Assembly (NCBI RefSeq): GCF_004116495.1
Contig: NZ_PDKC01000027.1
Location: 1-37,067 of the forward strand
Source: Arcobacter sp. CECT 8985
Lineage (GTDB): Bacteria; Campylobacterota; Campylobacteria; Campylobacterales; Arcobacteraceae
Length of the DNA: 37,067 nucleotides
Reading direction: 5' to 3'
Each line of letters starts with the position of its first letter. Within the stretch, counting starts at the first letter, position 1. Positions 1-9,566 of this stretch are shown here, piece after piece. The position numbers and the translations under genes were made by a program. The notes beneath the pieces are model-generated. The model did not search any database and had not been told where the DNA came from. It saw only the letters and a list, made by a program, of their open reading frames with translations.

Positions 1-594
1 GAGTTACCATCTTATACTATAAAAAGTTTAGAAAAATTAGATATTGATGTATTAAAAATAAACAACAATTTTTATATATCAACAGATATAAAAAAAGCTG
101 ATTTAGATTTGGTAAAGAGTAAAGATTTTATATATGTGCTAAGCTTTTCTATGCTTTTTGAAAAATCACTACAAGATAGTAAAAATAATCTTCTTTTATT
201 AGGAAGTATAACTTTATTTATAATATTTATAATTTTATATATTGTTACAAAAAAAAGATTTTTTAATGCAGTTAATTTTATTTTATTTCCAATATCAATT
301 ATTCTTTATTACTCATATTTTGTAGAATTTAATATTTTACATATTTTTATGATTTTTATAATCTTAGCTTTGAGCATTGATTATGGTATCTACTTTTCAA
401 AAGATGCAACTTTACAAACGAATAAAGCAATTGCATACTCTCTTCTTAGTACATTTGCTGGATTTGGAGTTTTAATATTTAGTCAAATAAACTCTTTAAA
501 ATCCATTGGAATGGTAACTACAATCGCAGTTATTAGTATAACTATATTATTAATATTTTCAAAAAGGTATAAAAATGAAACTAATCGTTCATAA
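1..594 (+). CDS. MMPL/RND-family exporter, C-terminal part (5' end outside window)
   Basis: The frame is open from the first base, so this is the tail (about 197 residues) of a larger membrane protein. An internal TTG at 109 would give a 161-residue protein, but the open frame before it argues for a gene that starts left of the window. Several hydrophobic helices follow one another, and the ALSIDYGIYFSKD segment matches the D-Y pair in a transmembrane helix of MMPL proteins. MMPL exporters are regular members of aryl-polyene and flexirubin clusters, where they are thought to move the lipid product or intermediate across the inner membrane. The last 20 bases overlap the AMP-ligase gene, so the two are translationally linked. 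Family call good; substrate inferred from context. Confidence 0.8.
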   Translation, partial: ELPSYTIKSLEKLDIDVLKINNNFYISTDIKKADLDLVKSKDFIYVLSFSMLFEKSLQDSKNNLLLLGSITLFIIFIILYIVTKKRFFNAVNFILFPISIILYYSYFVEFNILHIFMIFIILALSIDYGIYFSKDATLQTNKAIAYSLLSTFAGFGVLIFSQINSLKSIGMVTTIAVISITILLIFSKRYKNETNRS

Positions 595-1792
595 TGATGA
601 TTTAACAATAGATGAATTTTCTTTAAATAAAAAAGATTTATTTGATAAAAAGCTAACTAATCATGTTAGTTATATAAGCTCTGAAAAAAAAGCAGAGAAT
701 GCAATAAATATGATAAAAGCATATCATAGTAATGCAAAATCAATAGTTTTTGACCATACAAATAAAATAATAACAAAAAAACTAGAAAATTTAAATATTC
801 CAAAATTTGAATCATCTTTTGAACATATAACTATCTTTGATGATAAAGATTTTTCTATGATGTATTTTACTAGTGGAAGTACAGGAGAACCAACAGGTGC
901 TTTAAAAACAAAAGAACATTTAGAAAGTGAAATTAGAATATTAACAAAAATGTTAAAAGATTATAATATTAAAAAAGTTATTGTTACTGTACCATTTATT
1001 CATATTTATGGAACACTATTTGGACTTATTTATCCATTATTAAATGACCTTGATATTGTGCTTAAAGAGCACTTTTTACCTAATGATTTATTAAATATAA
1101 TAGAAGAGAACTCTTTAATAATTACAACTCCTCTTTATATAAAAGCTTTAAATCAAATAAGCGCTTCAAAAGATTTAAAAGATTCACTATTTGTTAGCTC
1201 AACTGGACCTTTGGATAAACAAAATGCAAAAGAGTTTGCTACAAAATTCAATACAAAAGTAATGCACATATTTGGTTCTACTGAAACAGGTGGAATTTCA
1301 TATAAATTTAATGATGAAGAGTTATGGACACCATATGAAAAAGTAGAGATATCAACAAATAAAGAAAGTGAACTAAAAATAAAATCACCTTTTGTTTCTA
1401 CAACAATTTTTGAAAAAGATTTTAAAGATATTAATGGAGAAATTCAAACATTTGATTATGTAGAAATTCAAAAAGACAATAGGTTTAAACTTATAGGAAG
1501 AAGTTCTCAAATACTTAAAATTGCAGGAAAAAGATATTCAACAATTCAGATTGAACAAATTTTAGAAGAACATAAAGATATTCAAAAAGCACTCGTATTT
1601 GTAAATAACTCAAATAATGAGTTTAAAGATGAAATATTAGATATTACTTTAGAAACAAAAAAAGATTTCACATCAAAAGATATAAAACTATTTTTAAAGA
1701 AAAATCTATCAAATTTAAAATTTTCTATTAAACTAAAATTAGTAGATAAAATACCAACATCAACTATTGGTAAAAAATTGAAAATAATATAA
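575..1792 (+). CDS. Acyl/aryl-AMP ligase (ANL superfamily) of the aryl-polyene cluster
   Basis: ANL-type adenylating enzyme of 405 residues. Visible motifs: P-loop YFTSGSTGEPTG (about 97-108), FGSTETGG (about 233-240), the hinge region LIGRSSQILKIAGKRYS, and a C-terminal TIGKK with the expected catalytic lysine. It is shorter than typical acyl-CoA synthetases (500-600 residues), lacking much of the N-terminal subdomain, as is common for the AMP-ligases of APE clusters. Inferred role: activate an aryl acid such as a 4-hydroxycinnamate- or hydroxybenzoate-type starter and load it on the ACP encoded further down. ATG at 575 is preceded by AAAAAGG and lies inside the end of the MMPL gene. The exact substrate cannot be read from sequence. 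Confidence 0.85.
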   Translation: MKLIVHNDDLTIDEFSLNKKDLFDKKLTNHVSYISSEKKAENAINMIKAYHSNAKSIVFDHTNKIITKKLENLNIPKFESSFEHITIFDDKDFSMMYFTSGSTGEPTGALKTKEHLESEIRILTKMLKDYNIKKVIVTVPFIHIYGTLFGLIYPLLNDLDIVLKEHFLPNDLLNIIEENSLIITTPLYIKALNQISASKDLKDSLFVSSTGPLDKQNAKEFATKFNTKVMHIFGSTETGGISYKFNDEELWTPYEKVEISTNKESELKIKSPFVSTTIFEKDFKDINGEIQTFDYVEIQKDNRFKLIGRSSQILKIAGKRYSTIQIEQILEEHKDIQKALVFVNNSNNEFKDEILDITLETKKDFTSKDIKLFLKKNLSNLKFSIKLKLVDKIPTSTIGKKLKII

Positions 1793-1823: not shown

Positions 1824-2681
1824 ATGTCAATAGAGATAAAAAATCTAACTAAAACTTATAAAAAGCACTTAATACTTGATAATTTAAATTTAAGTATACA
1901 AAAAGGTAGTATTTTCGGATTATTAGGACCAAATGGTGCAGGGAAAACTACTTTAGTATCAATTTTAAATTTTTTAATTAATAAGAATAGTGGTCAAATT
2001 AATATTGAAGGTTTTGATTTAGATAAACATGGGGAAAATATAAAATCAATTAGTAGTTATGTTCCTCAAACTTATGCTTTTTATCCTAAACTTACTACAT
2101 ATGAAAATTTAGAATTTTTTGGTGCACTTTATGGACTAAAATCTAATAAATTAAAAGAAAGAATTGATTATTGCATCAATGCAACCTCATTAGAAAAATA
2201 TATTAATCGTCAAGCATATACTTATTCAGGTGGCTTAAAAAGAAGACTAAATATTGCTATTGGTTTATTAAATGATCCTAAAATTTTATATTTAGATGAA
2301 CCAACAGTAGGAATTGACCCTCAATCAAGAAAATATATTTTAAATGTAATAAAAAATATTAATAAAAAGAAAAAAACAACAATAATTTATACTTCCCATT
2401 ATATGGAAGAAGTAGAGTTTTTATGTGATGAAATTGCTATCTTAGATAAAGGTAAAATAATTTTACAAGATAAAAAAGATGATTTAATTAACAAAAATTC
2501 AAAAATAACAATTAAATTTGATGATGAAACAACAACTGAAATAGACATAAAAAATGATTATAATAAATTTACTGAATATATAAAATCACTTGAAAATAGA
2601 AATATCAAAAATATAGATTTTGGATATAAAAATTTAGAAGAGATGTTTTTAAATTTAACAAAACAGGATTTAAGAGACTAA
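1824..2681 (+). CDS. ABC-2 type transporter, ATP-binding protein
   Basis: A 285-residue nucleotide-binding subunit. Walker A GPNGAGKT (35-42), Q-loop VPQTY, signature SGGLKRR (135-141), Walker B ILYLDEP (154-160) and a switch His in the TSHYMEE segment are all intact, so it should hydrolyse ATP. Closest in type to DrrA/CcmA-like exporters that pair with one ABC-2 permease. The stop TAA shares its last A with the ATG of the permease gene (TAATG), strong evidence for a pair. Located between the ligase and the ACP, so export of the polyene lipid or a precursor is the natural inference; an ABC exporter is also found in flexirubin-type clusters. Confidence 0.88.
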   Translation: MSIEIKNLTKTYKKHLILDNLNLSIQKGSIFGLLGPNGAGKTTLVSILNFLINKNSGQINIEGFDLDKHGENIKSISSYVPQTYAFYPKLTTYENLEFFGALYGLKSNKLKERIDYCINATSLEKYINRQAYTYSGGLKRRLNIAIGLLNDPKILYLDEPTVGIDPQSRKYILNVIKNINKKKKTTIIYTSHYMEEVEFLCDEIAILDKGKIILQDKKDDLINKNSKITIKFDDETTTEIDIKNDYNKFTEYIKSLENRNIKNIDFGYKNLEEMFLNLTKQDLRD

Positions 2682-3844
2682 TGTTTAAATATTTACTAAA
2701 AAAAGAATTTACACTAATCTTAAGAGATATTCATGCCCTTTTAGTTCTTTTTATTATGCCAACACTTTTTATACTAATAATGTCTTTAGCTTTAAAAAAT
2801 AGCTATTCAAACACAATTGATGTAAAGTTAAAAGTCGCAATATTATCAAATAAAAATAGTAGTAGTATTAAAACTTTAATAAAAGATATAAATAAAAATA
2901 GTTTTTTTAAAGCTACATATATTAATACAAATGATGATAATAAATCACTTTTATATAAAAAAAACTTTGATTTTTTAATAAATATAGAAAGCAATTATAT
3001 TTTAAAAGTTAAATCAGCAAAACAGGATTTTAAAATTCATTTATATTCAAAGCCAGATACACAACAACAAAAGATTTCATTAATAAAAAGTATTATTGTA
3101 TCTTCTATAAAAACAACTGTATTAAAGCAATTATTAAAAGTACAAAAAATTGAATCTAAATCTATGAATGATTTAAATAGTTTTATTCAAAATAATATTG
3201 TTTATAAAAATAAAAAAATTGATCTAAAACCAACTTCAGTTCAGCAAAGTGTTCCTGCTTGGTTAGTTTTTTCAATGTTTTTTATTCTTATTCCAATATC
3301 AAATACTTTTATTAATGAAAAAAATTTTGGAACAATAAATAGAATAAGAAGTATAAATGTCTCATTTTTACCAATTTTAATTAGCAAAATCTTTCCTTAT
3401 TATATTATAAATCAAATACAAGTAATTTTTATGATTTTAGTTGGTATATATATAGTACCAATGTTAGGTGGAGATAAATTAGTAATTTTAGGTAACTATT
3501 TAATGATTTTTATTGTATCAAGTGTAGTTAGTCTTACATCAATATCTTTTGCACTATTAATTGCAAATATAAGTAAAACTACAGAAGAAGCAACTACTTA
3601 TGGTGGTGTTTCAAATATAATTTTAGCCGCACTTGGTGGAATAATGGTACCTAAATTTGTCATGCCTTTATTTATGCAAGAGGCAACAGAGTATTCACCT
3701 ATGGCATGGGGTTTGCAAAGTTTTTTAGAAGTTTTTGTAAGAGGTGGTAATTTTAATGATATTTCTACTTACATATATAAAATGATAATTTTTGCTATAA
3801 TTTGTCTATTAATTGCATATTTCTTATTAAAAAAAAGGAGTTAA
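2681..3844 (+). CDS. ABC-2 type transporter permease
   Basis: A 387-residue protein with classic ABC-2 layout: one N-terminal membrane helix (about 19-37), a large polar outside domain (about 40-190) and five further helices (about 193-212, 234-258, 268-292, 305-325, 362-383). This matches the YhhJ/DrrB type of permease (ABC2_membrane_3). It overlaps the ATPase gene by one base and its stop codon directly abuts the ACP start, so the exporter is part of the biosynthetic operon. Cargo is unknown; being beside an MMPL exporter, it may handle a different step, such as delivery to the periplasm before outer-membrane transfer. Confidence 0.85.
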   Translation: MFKYLLKKEFTLILRDIHALLVLFIMPTLFILIMSLALKNSYSNTIDVKLKVAILSNKNSSSIKTLIKDINKNSFFKATYINTNDDNKSLLYKKNFDFLINIESNYILKVKSAKQDFKIHLYSKPDTQQQKISLIKSIIVSSIKTTVLKQLLKVQKIESKSMNDLNSFIQNNIVYKNKKIDLKPTSVQQSVPAWLVFSMFFILIPISNTFINEKNFGTINRIRSINVSFLPILISKIFPYYIINQIQVIFMILVGIYIVPMLGGDKLVILGNYLMIFIVSSVVSLTSISFALLIANISKTTEEATTYGGVSNIILAALGGIMVPKFVMPLFMQEATEYSPMAWGLQSFLEVFVRGGNFNDISTYIYKMIIFAIICLLIAYFLLKKRS

Positions 3845-4111
3845 ATGATAGGATCTAAAGATAATAACTTAAAAATTGAACTTAAAAAACTTATAGTTGA
3901 AGAGTGCGATAAAGATATAGAACCTAATGATATAAAAGATGATGAAATACTATTTGGAAGTAGTTCTTCTTTAGAATTAGACTCTATGGATGCTTTACAA
4001 ATTTCAATGGCTTTACATAAAAAATATGGTGTTGATACAAATGATAGTAAAAAACTAAGAAAAATTATGGAGTCAATTAATACATTGGCAGACTACGTGC
4101 AACCGGAGTAA
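3845..4111 (+). CDS. Acyl carrier protein
   Basis: An 88-residue acidic protein with the carrier-protein attachment site LELDSMDALQIS; Ser47 is the expected 4'-phosphopantetheine site (DSMD in place of the usual DSL). The helical layout and length fit a free-standing type II ACP. The ATG follows the permease stop with no gap and is preceded by AAAAAGGAG. Inferred role: carries the growing aryl-polyene chain for the ketosynthase just downstream. It is distinct from a housekeeping acpP, which would normally sit beside fabF/fabG. Confidence 0.88.
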   Translation: MIGSKDNNLKIELKKLIVEECDKDIEPNDIKDDEILFGSSSSLELDSMDALQISMALHKKYGVDTNDSKKLRKIMESINTLADYVQPE

Positions 4112-4113
4112 AT

Positions 4114-5259
4114 TTGAGTTATATTATTGGAAGTTCATTAGTTTGTAATCTTGGAGATAATTTTCAAGATATTACAAATAATTTAATATCTATTAATCAA
4201 GACAATTATTTAAAAAGAATAAAAAATATTTTTAAAGATAAACTATATTATCCAATAAATAATGATTATGAGACAAAAAAAGACAAGTATGAACAAATAT
4301 TAAAAAAAATAGTATTTGATGCCATAAAAGAGGCTGGTCTTACAAAAGATCAACAAAAAGAGTTACATATTTTTATTGGTTCTACTTCTATGGATATTGC
4401 TACAAATGAAGAATATTGTAATAATTTTATAAACAATAAATCTAGTATAAAATATAAAGAGATTGGTAATGGCCCCATTGGAACATATATTGAAGATTTA
4501 ATAGATTCAAAATATAAAGCAACACTTTTTGCAACAGCATGCACATCTGCAACAAATGCACTTTCTTATGCTTCACGACTTATAGAGCAAAAACAGATTA
4601 AAAGAGCATTGGTAATAGGACTTGAACTATTTAATAAATCTACTTTTGGAGGCTTTTCATCATTAATGTTACTTTCTAAAAAAGGTATTTATAGACCTTT
4701 TGATATTAATAGTGATGGAATAATTTTAGGAGAAGGTTGTTCTGCAATTATTATTGATGAGAATAAAAAAAATAAAAATGATTTTAAATATATTAGTTCA
4801 TCGAATATCTGTGACAACTATTCTGAAACAACAAGTGATCCAACAGGTATTCCTATTTTTAACACTTTAGATTCAACTTTAGAAAAAGCAAACTTAGGAC
4901 TAAAAGATATTGACTGTATAAAAGCTCATGCAACAGGAAGTGAAAATAATAACTTATCAGAAGCAAGAGCAATTAAACTTCTTTTTGATAAATATAAAAC
5001 AACTACAAGAGTTACATCTTTAAAACCTTTAATTGGTCATACTCTTGGAGCATGTGGAACAAATGAAATTGTATTAATGTTATATGCATTAAAAAAAGGT
5101 TTTTTACCTGCAACATTTGGATTTGAAACGCCTGCTGAAGATGTTAAATTTACTCCAATTTTGGAAAATGAAAAGTTCAATAATAAAGCAACAATTTTAT
5201 TTAATTATGTGGCTTTTGGTGGGAATAATAGTTCAATTATTCTTTCAAATAAGGATTAG
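4114..5259 (+). CDS. Beta-ketoacyl-ACP synthase (FabF type), catalytically complete
   Basis: A 381-residue condensing enzyme. The Cys-His-His set is present: Cys143 in ATACTSATNAL, His272 in KAHATGS and His309 in LKPLIGHTLGACG, with Lys304 before the second His. The start is TTG at 4114, chosen because GGAG lies just upstream and the ORF begins two bases after the ACP stop. It should perform decarboxylative Claisen condensation of malonyl-ACP with the aryl-acyl chain, giving iterative elongation. The partner subunit is probably the next gene, as APE ketosynthases work as pairs with a chain-length-factor-like protein. Confidence 0.88.
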   Translation: MSYIIGSSLVCNLGDNFQDITNNLISINQDNYLKRIKNIFKDKLYYPINNDYETKKDKYEQILKKIVFDAIKEAGLTKDQQKELHIFIGSTSMDIATNEEYCNNFINNKSSIKYKEIGNGPIGTYIEDLIDSKYKATLFATACTSATNALSYASRLIEQKQIKRALVIGLELFNKSTFGGFSSLMLLSKKGIYRPFDINSDGIILGEGCSAIIIDENKKNKNDFKYISSSNICDNYSETTSDPTGIPIFNTLDSTLEKANLGLKDIDCIKAHATGSENNNLSEARAIKLLFDKYKTTTRVTSLKPLIGHTLGACGTNEIVLMLYALKKGFLPATFGFETPAEDVKFTPILENEKFNNKATILFNYVAFGGNNSSIILSNKD

Positions 5260-5261
5260 TT

Positions 5262-6098
5262 ATGTATATTCACGCATCAGCAAAGATATTAAATGAAAAA
5301 AAAGACATCAAGGAGTATAGAGCTCTATTAAAACAGATTTCATCAATTAATCTAAGAAGATCTAGTAAATTTAATATTTTATCTGTTTATGGTGCTTTAC
5401 TTTGCATGAAAAATATTAATACTCTTGGAAATAGTGGAATATATATTTCTACTGAAAATGGACCTATTACAGATGTATGCAAAGTGATTGATACAGTAAA
5501 TGAAAAAGATTTTATTATTATGCCTTTTGATTTTTTGAATATTAATGTTAATAATGTTAGTTTTTATGTTGCAAAAGCTTTAAATTTCAATGGTAAAAAT
5601 ATGGTTTTGATGAATGAAACTTTAGGATTTGAAAAAACTTTACAACTTGCAAAATTTGATCTTGATACAAATGATATAAATGAGGCATTAATTGGAGCTG
5701 TTGATGAATCTGTTGAAAATATTCATAACTACTGTTCGTATATTGAAAATCCTTTAAATAAAGAGATAAAAGAGGGAAGTTGCTGGATATATACAAATAA
5801 ACAAAAAGAAAATAACCTAGGAAAAATTGAATATATAAAAGAGTTTTATTCTGTTAAAGAACTTATTGAAAATATTAGTTTTGATACAGATTCTATTTCA
5901 TTAAATAGCTTTGCATATTTAGATAAAAATCTTTCTGAAATCATAAAAAATAAAAATATTGTATTATCAAATATATATTATGGATGTGAAGGAGTATTAA
6001 ATATATTAAAAATTATAAAAAATAAAAAAGATACTATTCATATAGCAAAAGATAAAAATAATAAAGTAATAGTAATAAAAGTTTTATTTGAAGACTAA
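5262..6098 (+). CDS. Ketosynthase-like protein without catalytic Cys (chain-length-factor-like)
   Basis: A 278-residue protein whose middle (about 85-150) follows the ketosynthase N-terminal pattern: PFDFLNINVNNVSFYVAKAL, then VLMNETLGFEKTLQLA, then NEALIGAVDES. Aligned to its upstream neighbour, the nucleophile position carries Asn118 instead of Cys, and neither catalytic His motif is present in the short C-terminal part. It resembles Ketoacyl-synt_2-type proteins that accompany an active ketosynthase in APE/flexirubin clusters. Inferred role: non-catalytic partner that shapes chain length or heterodimer formation. It begins two bases after the active ketosynthase stop. Alternative: a decaying gene, but the frame is intact over its full length. 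Confidence 0.7.
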   Translation: MYIHASAKILNEKKDIKEYRALLKQISSINLRRSSKFNILSVYGALLCMKNINTLGNSGIYISTENGPITDVCKVIDTVNEKDFIIMPFDFLNINVNNVSFYVAKALNFNGKNMVLMNETLGFEKTLQLAKFDLDTNDINEALIGAVDESVENIHNYCSYIENPLNKEIKEGSCWIYTNKQKENNLGKIEYIKEFYSVKELIENISFDTDSISLNSFAYLDKNLSEIIKNKNIVLSNIYYGCEGVLNILKIIKNKKDTIHIAKDKNNKVIVIKVLFED

Positions 6099-6118
6099 AG
6101 TAATATTACTTTAGCTTC
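6090..6118. terminator. Bidirectional terminator-like palindrome between convergent operons
   Basis: Perfect 20-bp palindrome CTAAAGTAAT/ATTACTTTAG at 6095-6114, extended by GAAG (6090-6093) and CTTC (6115-6118) with one unpaired A. It contains the stop codon of the plus-strand ketosynthase-like gene and that of the minus-strand BtrH-like gene. There is no long T tract on either side, so termination strength is uncertain. Confidence 0.6.
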
Positions 6119-7098
6119 AATAATAATTTAGCAGCTTCTTTTTCATAATTTGAAGCTTCGATTAATTTATTTGCAACCTTAGACGCATCAAATTTCTGTG
6201 GTTTTTTACTTGATTCTACACATAATAAGGCAAATTCTCTTAAAGTATTTCCAGATTTTACAAATAATTCGGATGATTCTTTTAATATATCTTCATCAAT
6301 CTCATATTTTATAGATTCTTTCAAAAATGCAGCATATAAGAAACGGAAACCTCCACCTCCAGTTCCTATTTCTTCTTGCATTCTTACAATGTGCGTTAAA
6401 AAATTTTTAATATATCGTTCATTATTGTATACATTTAAAGATTTTATCTTTTTTGCAAGTTTAGTCATCCCTTTTATTCCAGCATAAGGGAAAGGAGTCA
6501 ATAAAGATTTTGCATTTTTTATGATTGCTTTTTTTATGATTTTTGCAAAATCAATATTTGTAGGAATATTTGTAGGATAATATAAAAAACCTTTTGGGGC
6601 AAAAATACCCTTTGCAAATCTAGCTTTATTTAAATCTTTCTCTTCACACTCAACTAAATGTTCAAAAACAGGATCAGAAATATAATATTTTGTACCCTCC
6701 TTTTTAAAAACAAGTAAATTATGTGCATTAAAATGAAATCTCATATCTTTAGGGAAATAAGGTAAATAAAAAACTGAAGTTTGTAATCCAACTAGTTGAT
6801 TTTTATCTAAAAGCCTTTCTAATTCTTTATTTGCATCTTTTTCATTTTTAAAACTCATCTTTACCATTTTTATATCTAATACTTTAGATATTCTATTTAT
6901 TATATTTTTTGGTAATTGTCTATAAGCAATTAAAGGCATATTACTAATTTTTGCAATAGGTAAATATACAAATGATAAAGAACTAGTAATTCCAAAAGCC
7001 ATTGGTTCTGATAATTTTAAGCCATAACTAGTAAGAAGAGTTGAAATTACACCACTTTCACAATGTGCAAATTGAGAATGTTCAAACTCTTTAATCAT
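6106..7098 (-). CDS. BtrH-like acyltransferase (BtrH N-terminal domain, DUF4872-type)
   Basis: A 330-residue protein. The N-terminal half has the BtrH_N pattern: AHCESGVIST with a candidate nucleophile Cys13, LSEPMAFGI, then FNAHNLLVF with His126 and YYISDPVFEH with Asp142, a Cys-His-Asp set like papain-fold acyltransferases. BtrH itself (butirosin pathway) moves an acyl chain from a carrier protein to an acceptor. Here the gene ends the DarA-DarB operon and sits opposite the aryl-polyene ACP. Inference: it takes the ACP-bound polyene and attaches it to an alcohol or phenol, possibly the dialkylresorcinol. ATG overlaps the previous stop as ATGA. Domain call is good; the acceptor is a guess. 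Confidence 0.8.
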   Translation of the reverse strand: MIKEFEHSQFAHCESGVISTLLTSYGLKLSEPMAFGITSSLSFVYLPIAKISNMPLIAYRQLPKNIINRISKVLDIKMVKMSFKNEKDANKELERLLDKNQLVGLQTSVFYLPYFPKDMRFHFNAHNLLVFKKEGTKYYISDPVFEHLVECEEKDLNKARFAKGIFAPKGFLYYPTNIPTNIDFAKIIKKAIIKNAKSLLTPFPYAGIKGMTKLAKKIKSLNVYNNERYIKNFLTHIVRMQEEIGTGGGGFRFLYAAFLKESIKYEIDEDILKESSELFVKSGNTLREFALLCVESSKKPQKFDASKVANKLIEASNYEKEAAKLLLKLK

Positions 7099-7478
7099 AC
7101 TTTTAACCCCTTTAGCTCTTCAATTGTTATATTAAGTGCAATTGCATATTTATTTAATAATTTATCATTTAACTTTTGAAATTTTTTCATTTTTAAATGT
7201 CTTTTAACTCTAAAAGAGAATATTCCCATTACACTTGCCAATGTGGAGATATCCATTCTATTTTTATACATAAAATATTCAATTGGCGAACTTAATTTAT
7301 TTTCTAAACTCTCTTTTGCTAATAATTCAAACTCTTCAACTGCAGTTTGTGTAGCAAACTCTTCTACACTACTTCCATAATTTTCTGTATGAAATCCTTC
7401 TTCATCGGCAACATACATTACTTTTTGTTGTCCTTCAAGAATTTTATTCTCTTCTTTTGGAATATTAATTTTTTCCAT
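7095..7478 (-). CDS. Small HTH (XRE-like) protein of the resorcinol operon
   Basis: Start placed at 7478, giving 127 residues beginning MEKINIPKEE: this ATG overlaps the DarB stop as TAATG, whereas the longer frame from 7538 would intrude 60 bases into darB. The C-terminal half (DISTLASVMGIFSFRVKRHLK... NKYAIALNITIEELKGL) reads like a Cro/CI-type helix-turn-helix; the N-terminal about 60 residues are acidic and unrecognised. It overlaps the BtrH-like gene by ATGA, so it is made together with two enzymes. It may be an autoregulator of the cluster or a degenerate HTH fold used for protein contact. Confidence 0.65.
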   Translation of the reverse strand: MEKINIPKEENKILEGQQKVMYVADEEGFHTENYGSSVEEFATQTAVEEFELLAKESLENKLSSPIEYFMYKNRMDISTLASVMGIFSFRVKRHLKMKKFQKLNDKLLNKYAIALNITIEELKGLKV

Positions 7479-8617
7479 TAAACAACTTCTAAATACATAA
7501 ATGAAGTTGAAAATCTCCCACTTTCTGGAATATAGCAAAGTATCTTGTCAGACTTTTTCAATCTATTTGAATTAAATAACTCTTCAAGTATTATATAAAT
7601 AGAAGCACTTCCTGTGTTTCCAAATTCTGTTAAATTAGTGAACCATTTTTCATATGGAATTTCAAAATTAGCTTGTTTCATACCTTCATATACTTTATTT
7701 CTAAAAAATGTAGAGGAATAGTGAGGTAAAAAGTAATCAACATCATCTACACTTATTCCTCTTTTTTTAATTACATCACTTAAAGGTTTTGTAACTGTAT
7801 ATTCAATTATATTTTCATTTAATAATTTTACATTTTGTTTTACAGAAAGAAGAGATTTATTCATCACTTCTTCTTGCTCAAATGCTCTCCAAGAAGTAAC
7901 ATTATTATTTTCGTCAACTTCACATCCACTATACATACAAATTGGCATTTCACCTGCATAAGATAAAATATCAATCCATTTTACTTCTAAAGATAATTTA
8001 TTTTCATTTGGTTTATTTTCTAAAAGCATTGCTCCTGCACCATCTGAAAGCATCCATCTTAAAAAATCTTTTTCAAACTCAATTCCAGGCTTTTTTTCTA
8101 AATCTTTATAATCAGACTCTTTTTTAAAATTATTAGAGTTTAAAATCATTGATGAAGTTTCTGATCCAGTTGACACACCATTTGATAATTCACCTGACTT
8201 AATTCCATAGTATATATATTTTAATGCATTTATTCCACTTAAACAAATTCCAGAAGTACTAATTGTCTCAATTTTATTTATTCCTAATTCTCCTTGAACC
8301 ATTAAAGTATGTCCAGGCATTAATTGATCAGGAGAAGTAGTTCCACAAGATAATGCTTCAATTTTATCTATAGAAAAATTATCATTTTGTAATTTTTTAA
8401 TTGCATTTGCAGTTATCTGTGCATTTGTAAATAATGGTTTTAATGTATGTTTCTCTAAAACATAAAATCTTCTTTTTATTCCATTACTTTTTAAAACAAT
8501 ATTTTTTGCTTTAGATTTTTTGCCACCGATATAGCCTAAATAATCCTCTATCTCATCATTTAATACAGGTTCATTTGGCATAAACTTTTGTACATTATTT
8601 ATATATACTTTACTCAT
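7478..8617 (-). CDS. darB: DarB-like beta-ketoacyl-ACP synthase III (dialkylresorcinol ketosynthase)
   Basis: A 379-residue FabH-fold condensing enzyme with a full Cys-His-Asn triad: Cys125 (SGICLSGINAL), His299 (FLPHYSS) and Asn334 (FGNTGSASI). It is longer than housekeeping FabH (about 320). In known dialkylresorcinol pathways DarB joins two beta-ketoacyl units head to head, a step followed by cyclisation. The assignment rests on its place one base after darA and on the aryl-polyene genes opposite. The cytoplasmic enzyme would take ACP- or CoA-bound chains. An alternative is a generic KASIII that starts chains, which I find less likely next to DarA. Confidence 0.82.
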   Translation of the reverse strand: MSKVYINNVQKFMPNEPVLNDEIEDYLGYIGGKKSKAKNIVLKSNGIKRRFYVLEKHTLKPLFTNAQITANAIKKLQNDNFSIDKIEALSCGTTSPDQLMPGHTLMVQGELGINKIETISTSGICLSGINALKYIYYGIKSGELSNGVSTGSETSSMILNSNNFKKESDYKDLEKKPGIEFEKDFLRWMLSDGAGAMLLENKPNENKLSLEVKWIDILSYAGEMPICMYSGCEVDENNNVTSWRAFEQEEVMNKSLLSVKQNVKLLNENIIEYTVTKPLSDVIKKRGISVDDVDYFLPHYSSTFFRNKVYEGMKQANFEIPYEKWFTNLTEFGNTGSASIYIILEELFNSNRLKKSDKILCYIPESGRFSTSFMYLEVV

Positions 8618-8618
8618 C

Positions 8619-9566
8619 TTATAAAAATTCCTTCATTCTATAGTCACCATTACCAGATGGTAACTCATAAAACTCTTTTTGCTTTAAAACTTTTTGTTTA
8701 TCTATTTTTCTTAATATCGTTTGAATTAACATATTTAAAGGAACAATTGTCAAAATAATCAATAATAAAAACACCACATATAACATTACAACTGGTCTTC
8801 TTTTTTTACTTCCGAAAGGACCGATTTTTCTTATTAATCCACCCCAAATTTTAAAACTTTTTGTCGCAATTTTTTCGCTTTTTATCAATTTCACATCTAC
8901 ATTAACTGCTCTTAATCCATCACAAATTGGTCTATTATTTTTTTCTTTATTATTTTGTAATGCATATTTTATTGCATTCCCAAATCTTTTTGCATCTTCT
9001 ATTTCTCTATTTGAGATTCCTGCTTTTGGGAATAAATTCCATAAACTATCTTTTTTACCTGTTAACATCCATCTAGGAGTTGTAACAAATGTAGAAAAAG
9101 AGTCTCCTTGATCAATCAAAACGATATTATCAATTAATATTGCATTTAATTGTTTTAACATTCCTTTTACTTTTTCTTGTGCCATTATCCACATATTTCT
9201 ACAACCAATTAATGTTATTACTGGTTTATTACGTAATTTTCTTTTTGCATAATCACTTTTCAAAAAAGCTGTTATTGGTAAGGAAGGAGATAAAAACCAA
9301 ACTTGATAAGGTAAAATAACTAAATCATAATCATTTTCATCATCTTCTATTGGTAATATTTCTGGGGGGTCTAAGTAGACAGATTCAGGAAAGGTATCCA
9401 TAAATGTCATAAAATCCCAAGGAAAAGGATAAGGATTTACAGGTTGAATATTTTTTACTACAACCTCAACATCTTTATCTTTTTTCAAAGGACTTATAAC
9501 ACTTTGTGTTAATCTATCTAATTGCCCAGTTTGTGAATAGGATATAACTAATACTTTTTTATTCAA
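8619..9566 (-). CDS. darA: DarA-like dialkylresorcinol condensing enzyme, flavodoxin-like N-terminus with C-terminal membrane helix
   Basis: A 315-residue protein. Residues 4-23 (KVLVISYSQTGQLDRLTQSV) form the first strand and SxTG phosphate loop of a flavodoxin-like fold; the LPYQVWFLSPSLPI and TLIGCRNMW segments match proteins annotated as dialkylresorcinol condensing enzyme DarA. A hydrophobic helix lies at about 258-282 (VVMLYVVFLLLIILTIVPLNML) after a basic patch, so the enzyme is probably tied to the inner membrane. It is the first gene of the minus-strand operon; darB follows after one base. Family-level knowledge says DarA acts with DarB in forming the resorcinol ring; the precise step is not shown by the sequence. 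Confidence 0.78.
   Translation of the reverse strand: MNKKVLVISYSQTGQLDRLTQSVISPLKKDKDVEVVVKNIQPVNPYPFPWDFMTFMDTFPESVYLDPPEILPIEDDENDYDLVILPYQVWFLSPSLPITAFLKSDYAKRKLRNKPVITLIGCRNMWIMAQEKVKGMLKQLNAILIDNIVLIDQGDSFSTFVTTPRWMLTGKKDSLWNLFPKAGISNREIEDAKRFGNAIKYALQNNKEKNNRPICDGLRAVNVDVKLIKSEKIATKSFKIWGGLIRKIGPFGSKKRRPVVMLYVVFLLLIILTIVPLNMLIQTILRKIDKQKVLKQKEFYELPSGNGDYRMKEFL

Follow-up and report, generated by a model that had tools for sequence, protein, structure and literature searches.

The window (the whole stretch of DNA analysed, 37,067 nucleotides of Arcobacter sp. CECT 8985) is the whole of contig C19. On its minus strand it carries darH (6106..7098), an open reading frame of 330 amino acids that starts with ATG and was assigned as a BtrH-related acyltransferase by Pfam, NCBIfam, an invariant triad and its fold. 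Directly upstream on the same strand lie darG (7095..7478), for a protein of 127 amino acids, putatively a partner, whose C-terminal domain is predicted to be helical and XRE/Cro-like; darB (7478..8617), for a StlD/DarB family beta-ketosynthase of dialkylresorcinol (DAR) ring formation; and a darA-like gene (8619..9566), which had no Pfam or NCBIfam match and was assigned as a DAR aromatase by synteny with Azoarcus darA (gene table of PMC3949708). DarB scored 594.1 bits against NF005293 (cut-off 450) and DarG 123.6 bits against NCBIfam DarG_fam (cut-off 70). The start of darG is the ATG at 7478, downstream of the TTG at 7538 that had been listed. The darB stop and darG start overlap in TAATG and the darG stop and darH start in ATGA, which indicates that darH is a real gene of the dialkylresorcinol operon.

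On the opposite strand, genes for an ABC ATPase (1824..2681) and an ABC-2 permease (2681..3844), both recognised by Pfam, a darC-like acyl carrier protein (ACP) with the serine motif LDSMD (3845..4111), a darJ-like ketosynthase (4114..5259) and a darK-like protein (5262..6098) converge on darH from the left. The ketosynthase, identified by the Pfam ketoacyl-synt model and by alignment, keeps its Cys (TACTS) and both His residues (KAHATGS and IGHTLG). The darK-like protein matched no family in Pfam or NCBIfam. Aligned loosely with ketosynthases, it is without the catalytic Cys, and it may therefore serve the 4114-5259 ketosynthase as a chain-length-factor-like partner. Also on the plus strand are an AMP-forming acyl ligase (575..1792) and the C-terminal fragment of an MMPL-type exporter truncated by the contig end (109..594), both assigned to the polyene half through relative G029, in which the ligase is contiguous with polyene genes and a 709-amino-acid protein is 64% identical to the fragment. 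The rest of that half in the source genome was found on contig C28 (ammonia-lyase, ketoreductase, ACP, ketosynthase, dehydratases, methyltransferase, LPLAT, glycosyltransferase and LolA). Both the DAR half and the aryl-polyene half are therefore present, and because the two are contiguous in G029, C28 and C19 probably adjoin in the source genome.

We surveyed the neighbours of darH in 80 loci from several bacterial groups. DarG was adjacent in 79 of the 80, followed by the ABC ATPase (71/80), the permease (69/80), the darA-like gene (68/80), the window-type ACP (66/80), the window-type ketosynthase (58/80) and the darK-like gene (40/80), whereas the AMP-forming acyl ligase was present in only 7 and the C28-type polyene ACP near DarH in only 10. 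The window ACP therefore belongs to the dar module. The sequence-only reading had taken it for the only ACP, serving the polyene, and this has to be corrected: the source genome has three, one each on C55 and C28 and one in the window, and the polyene ACP is the one on C28. The window-type ACP stays with DarH at Desulfobacterota loci from which darA and darB are absent, for example L073, L098 and L056, and three Gammaproteobacteria that have darA and darB alone lack the ACP, ketosynthase and ABC genes at that locus as well as darG and darH. Since the ACP tracks DarH rather than DarA and DarB, its gene context fits a role as acyl donor to DarH. The corrected picture changes the choice of carrier protein for an assay.

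The arcuflavin dar cluster of Azoarcus sp. BH72 (PMC3949708) shares with the window darA, darB, a conserved hypothetical gene, a BtrH-like gene, the ABC transporter, an ACP, a ketosynthase and darK, but in the window the ACP, ketosynthase and ABC half is on the opposite strand and converges on darH. The BtrH-like gene of that cluster is darE (azo0290), listed as a "BtrH-like peptidase", whereas NCBIfam makes the window's darH an acyltransferase. The names clash, in that darH and darG of PMC3949708 are PilT-domain and prevent-host-death proteins.

DarH has two Pfam domains, BtrH_N at residues 12-143 (E 4.5e-45; 153.6 bits against a gathering cut-off of 29.7) and DUF4872 at residues 154-326 (E 8.9e-49). 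It also matched the curated NCBIfam equivalog NF053550, DarH_acyl ("BtrH-related acyltransferase DarH"), at 457.7 bits (cut-off 300) over residues 4-326 of 330; the match is full-length and we found no difference from the family, whose name is an annotation. By its sequence, DarH thus clearly belongs to a named family and is not new as a kind. Cys13, His126 and Asp142, picked out beforehand as a set in BtrH_N-type motifs, are all present, in AHCESG, FNAHN and SDP. They were invariant in an alignment of 15 members, namely the window protein and 14 relatives of 50-78% identity, all from the window's own family. They were also invariant in 97/97 members from Campylobacterota, Proteobacteria and Desulfobacterota, a collection scanned with FHFNAHN or RMQEEIGT as seed, so that the invariance of His126 is partly a product of selection; Asp142 entered no selection, and the requirement for H[CS]E at extraction lost 0 loci. 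There are further invariant stretches, among them RMQEEIGTGG.GFR of the C-terminal domain.

Searching the PDB by sequence found no true relative, either with DarH itself or with its profile, which matched designed helical bundles only; a fold comparison was therefore needed. The AlphaFold2 model of DarH was confident (pLDDT 85.9, pTM 0.86). Its best solved matches were full-length: AziU3 (Z 23.1), CtaG (Z 22.7, 295 aligned residues) and CcbD (Z 20.3, 304 aligned residues). The next matches, at Z 14.7 or below, were smaller papain-like domains, aligned mostly over about 150 residues, among them the pseudomurein endoisopeptidase PeiR, C39 peptidases and phytochelatin synthase. CtaG (closthioamide) and CcbD (celesticetin) have the same two-domain fold as DarH, along about 300 residues, yet share only 10-13% identity with it and gave no sequence-profile match. 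CtaG also has the same Cys-His-Asp order, with a His-Asp spacing of 16 in both proteins. By their titles, PDB entries exist for the CtaG variants C11A, H128A and D144N, and for CcbD with a carrier-protein domain (PCP). Family and fold together thus support the earlier view of DarH as a BtrH-type Cys-His-Asp carrier-protein acyltransferase.

The kind of bond is a different matter. The products of CtaG, CcbD and BtrH are amides and not aryl esters, BtrH acylating an amine. This counts against ester formation by DarH, which on a phenol is thus an extrapolation. BtrH, of butirosin synthesis, is an ACP:aminoglycoside acyltransferase (PMC10318531); it has the BtrH_N domain in common with DarH, a kinship at domain level only, whereas the acceptor proposed for DarH is a dialkylresorcinol. 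The earlier description of BtrH as transferring an ACP-bound acyl group to a hydroxyl or amine is therefore inaccurate.

We then compared the distribution of DarH with those of DarB and of polyene markers. Of 61 genomes in the window's family, 17 had DarH and the same 17 had DarB, counted over cut-off. A polyene-type ammonia-lyase (at least 62% identity) was present in 22 of the 61, including 16 of the 17 with DarH; in the exception, G022, DarH and DarB are on contigs of 3-4 kb. DarH was absent from all 6 family genomes that had the ammonia-lyase without DarB. In a sample of 321 Gammaproteobacteria, with DarB and the polyene-type ketosynthase PRK09185 counted over cut-off, DarH occurred in 15 genomes, DarB in 18 and the ketosynthase in 72. 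All 15 DarH genomes were within the 18 DarB genomes, all 18 of which had the ketosynthase, and DarH was found in none of the 54 genomes with the ketosynthase but without DarB. It was likewise absent from 4 genomes whose DarB is remote and in which the ketosynthase did not reach cut-off. Within ketosynthase-positive Gammaproteobacteria, Fisher's test gave p = 7e-13; it corrects for neither common ancestry nor operon linkage, and the evidence is therefore the pattern and not the p-value. The use of PRK09185 as a polyene marker is an assumption, supported by its position on the same contig as DarH, within about 27 kb, in G147, G148, G231, G328 and G364. Across the genomes sampled, DarH was thus nearly confined to bacteria equipped for both halves of a yellow, flexirubin-like pigment, and this co-occurrence with DarB and the polyene markers indicates that DarH most likely joins the two halves.

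Flexirubins are esters of a polyene half and a dialkylresorcinol half, and arcuflavin is inferred to be so likewise (PMC3992019, PMC3949708). In Azoarcus the ester link was inferred from MS2 fragmentation, and free DAR was undetectable in extracts (PMC3949708). Considering the family, fold, operon and distribution together, we think it probable that DarH, as a two-domain papain-fold acyltransferase, esterifies dialkylresorcinol with the ACP-bound aryl-polyene. Cys13, with His126 and Asp142, would take the acyl chain from the ACP as a thioester and pass it to a hydroxyl acceptor; in this way the carboxyl of the finished aryl-polyene would be moved from its ACP, either the darC-like protein (3845-4111) or the polyene ACP on C28, to a phenolic OH of the resorcinol made by DarA and DarB. 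The product would be an ester of the flexirubin/arcuflavin type, which the ABC transporter of the dar module may then help to move. A polyene-resorcinol ester had been proposed from the sequence alone; co-occurrence with both halves, the family and the fold now speak for it, but the pattern does not prove the acceptor. The role of DarH is well supported, and at the biochemical level it is a candidate only. In the literature searched, no DarH had been assayed or knocked out, and we found no tested reaction for NF053550 and no tested enzyme for joining the flexirubin halves. What is added here is the three-way co-occurrence, the placement of the window ACP in the dar module, and the likeness in fold between DarH and both CtaG and CcbD; the conjunction makes DarH the leading candidate for joining the halves in Proteobacteria and Campylobacterota.

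We also considered whether DarH is required for resorcinol synthesis itself and rejected this, since three Gammaproteobacteria (G180, G274 and G297; loci L157, L158 and L159) have darA and darB without DarG or DarH. Heterologously expressed darB and darA produce DAR (PMC3992019), so DarH is not needed for it, and the step of DarH would come after DAR formation. The same three genomes have a polyene-type ketosynthase elsewhere, which tells against the proposed esterification by DarH; they may make no ester or use another enzyme. They are natural test cases for the need for DarH in ester formation.

Other possible explanations concern the acceptor and the enzyme. DarH could attach the polyene or a fatty acyl chain to a protein, sugar or membrane lipid, or transfer acyl groups between the two ACPs, while another enzyme makes the ester. 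The LPLAT-like acyltransferase, glycosyltransferase and exporter of polyene clusters would suit this explanation, as would the finding that DarH, with DarG, the ACP and the ketosynthase, is sometimes apart from darA and darB. Such separation was seen in several Desulfobacterota, and of 16 genomes selected largely for separated loci, 5 had no DarB match (mostly draft MAGs), which also counts against the proposed ester. However, most separated DarG-DarH loci examined have DarB elsewhere in the genome, on another contig, which weakens the argument that these loci point to a different acceptor. Moreover, the absence of DarH from the 54 Gammaproteobacteria and 6 family genomes with polyene markers but no DarB means that DarH is not a general polyene-lipid enzyme. 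We therefore regard another acceptor, including the lipid that the sequence-only reading allowed for, or transfer between ACPs as unlikely though possible.

Still less likely is that FlxW or another ligase-type enzyme makes the ester in place of DarH. FlxW, of the flexirubin cluster, was suggested for this same step (PMC3992019) and is ligase-like, a different enzyme type from DarH, but its role is a proposal only. In the survey above, the AMP-ligase seldom accompanied DarH, and its place among the polyene genes is the one expected of a ligase that activates the starter; 4-coumarate-CoA ligase activity has been demonstrated for FlxY (PMC3992019). The sequence-only reading could name no assigned enzyme for the ester step; besides FlxW, the NCBIfam name DarH and the Azoarcus darE entry were already on record. 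It is very improbable that DarH is an inactive scaffold, or a peptidase like the label given to its counterpart in the Azoarcus table: the PeiR and C39-type matches and the classification of BtrH_N near C39 and C70 (PMC10318531) would favour a peptidase, but carrier-protein acyltransferases match far better, over both domains and the full length (Z 20-23), nothing near darH was recognised as a peptide substrate, and the invariant triad makes a scaffold unlikely.

The DarG model has a Cro/C1-like helical domain despite the place of the gene inside a biosynthetic operon. Its best solved match was NGO0477 of Neisseria gonorrhoeae (Z 9.2). The fold matches listed were mostly XRE/Cro-like helix-turn-helix proteins at Z 9.2 or below, and AziU2, of the AziU2-U3 complex, was absent among them. 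A PDB sequence search with DarG gave nothing meaningful. DarG could be either a regulator or a partner protein for DarH, and it probably acts as the partner. The more specific proposal, that DarH is a papain-fold enzyme forming an aryl ester from a polyenoyl-ACP and a phenol together with the XRE-fold DarG, is put forward tentatively and is somewhat more doubtful than not. If true, a papain-fold enzyme of the BtrH/CtaG type would be making a phenolic ester instead of an amide, and it would supply, across Proteobacteria and Campylobacterota, the coupling step still missing for flexirubin-type pigments, which are in wide use as taxonomic markers.

Some loci lay outside these patterns. In two MAG loci, L058 (Deltaproteobacteria bacterium) and L069 (Syntrophaceae), DarG-DarH is beside divergent ketosynthase and ACP genes, with darA and darB absent at the locus; in L069 a radical-SAM-like protein is also beside the pair. 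Loci L160-L163 have remote DarB homologues, two of them in reading frames of 627-643 amino acids, and no polyene or dar genes were recognised around them; they possibly belong to another pathway with a DarB-like enzyme. Each of these remote DarB genes adjoins a gene for a protein of 230-330 amino acids, with DPSPW and LDQS motifs in L162 and L163.
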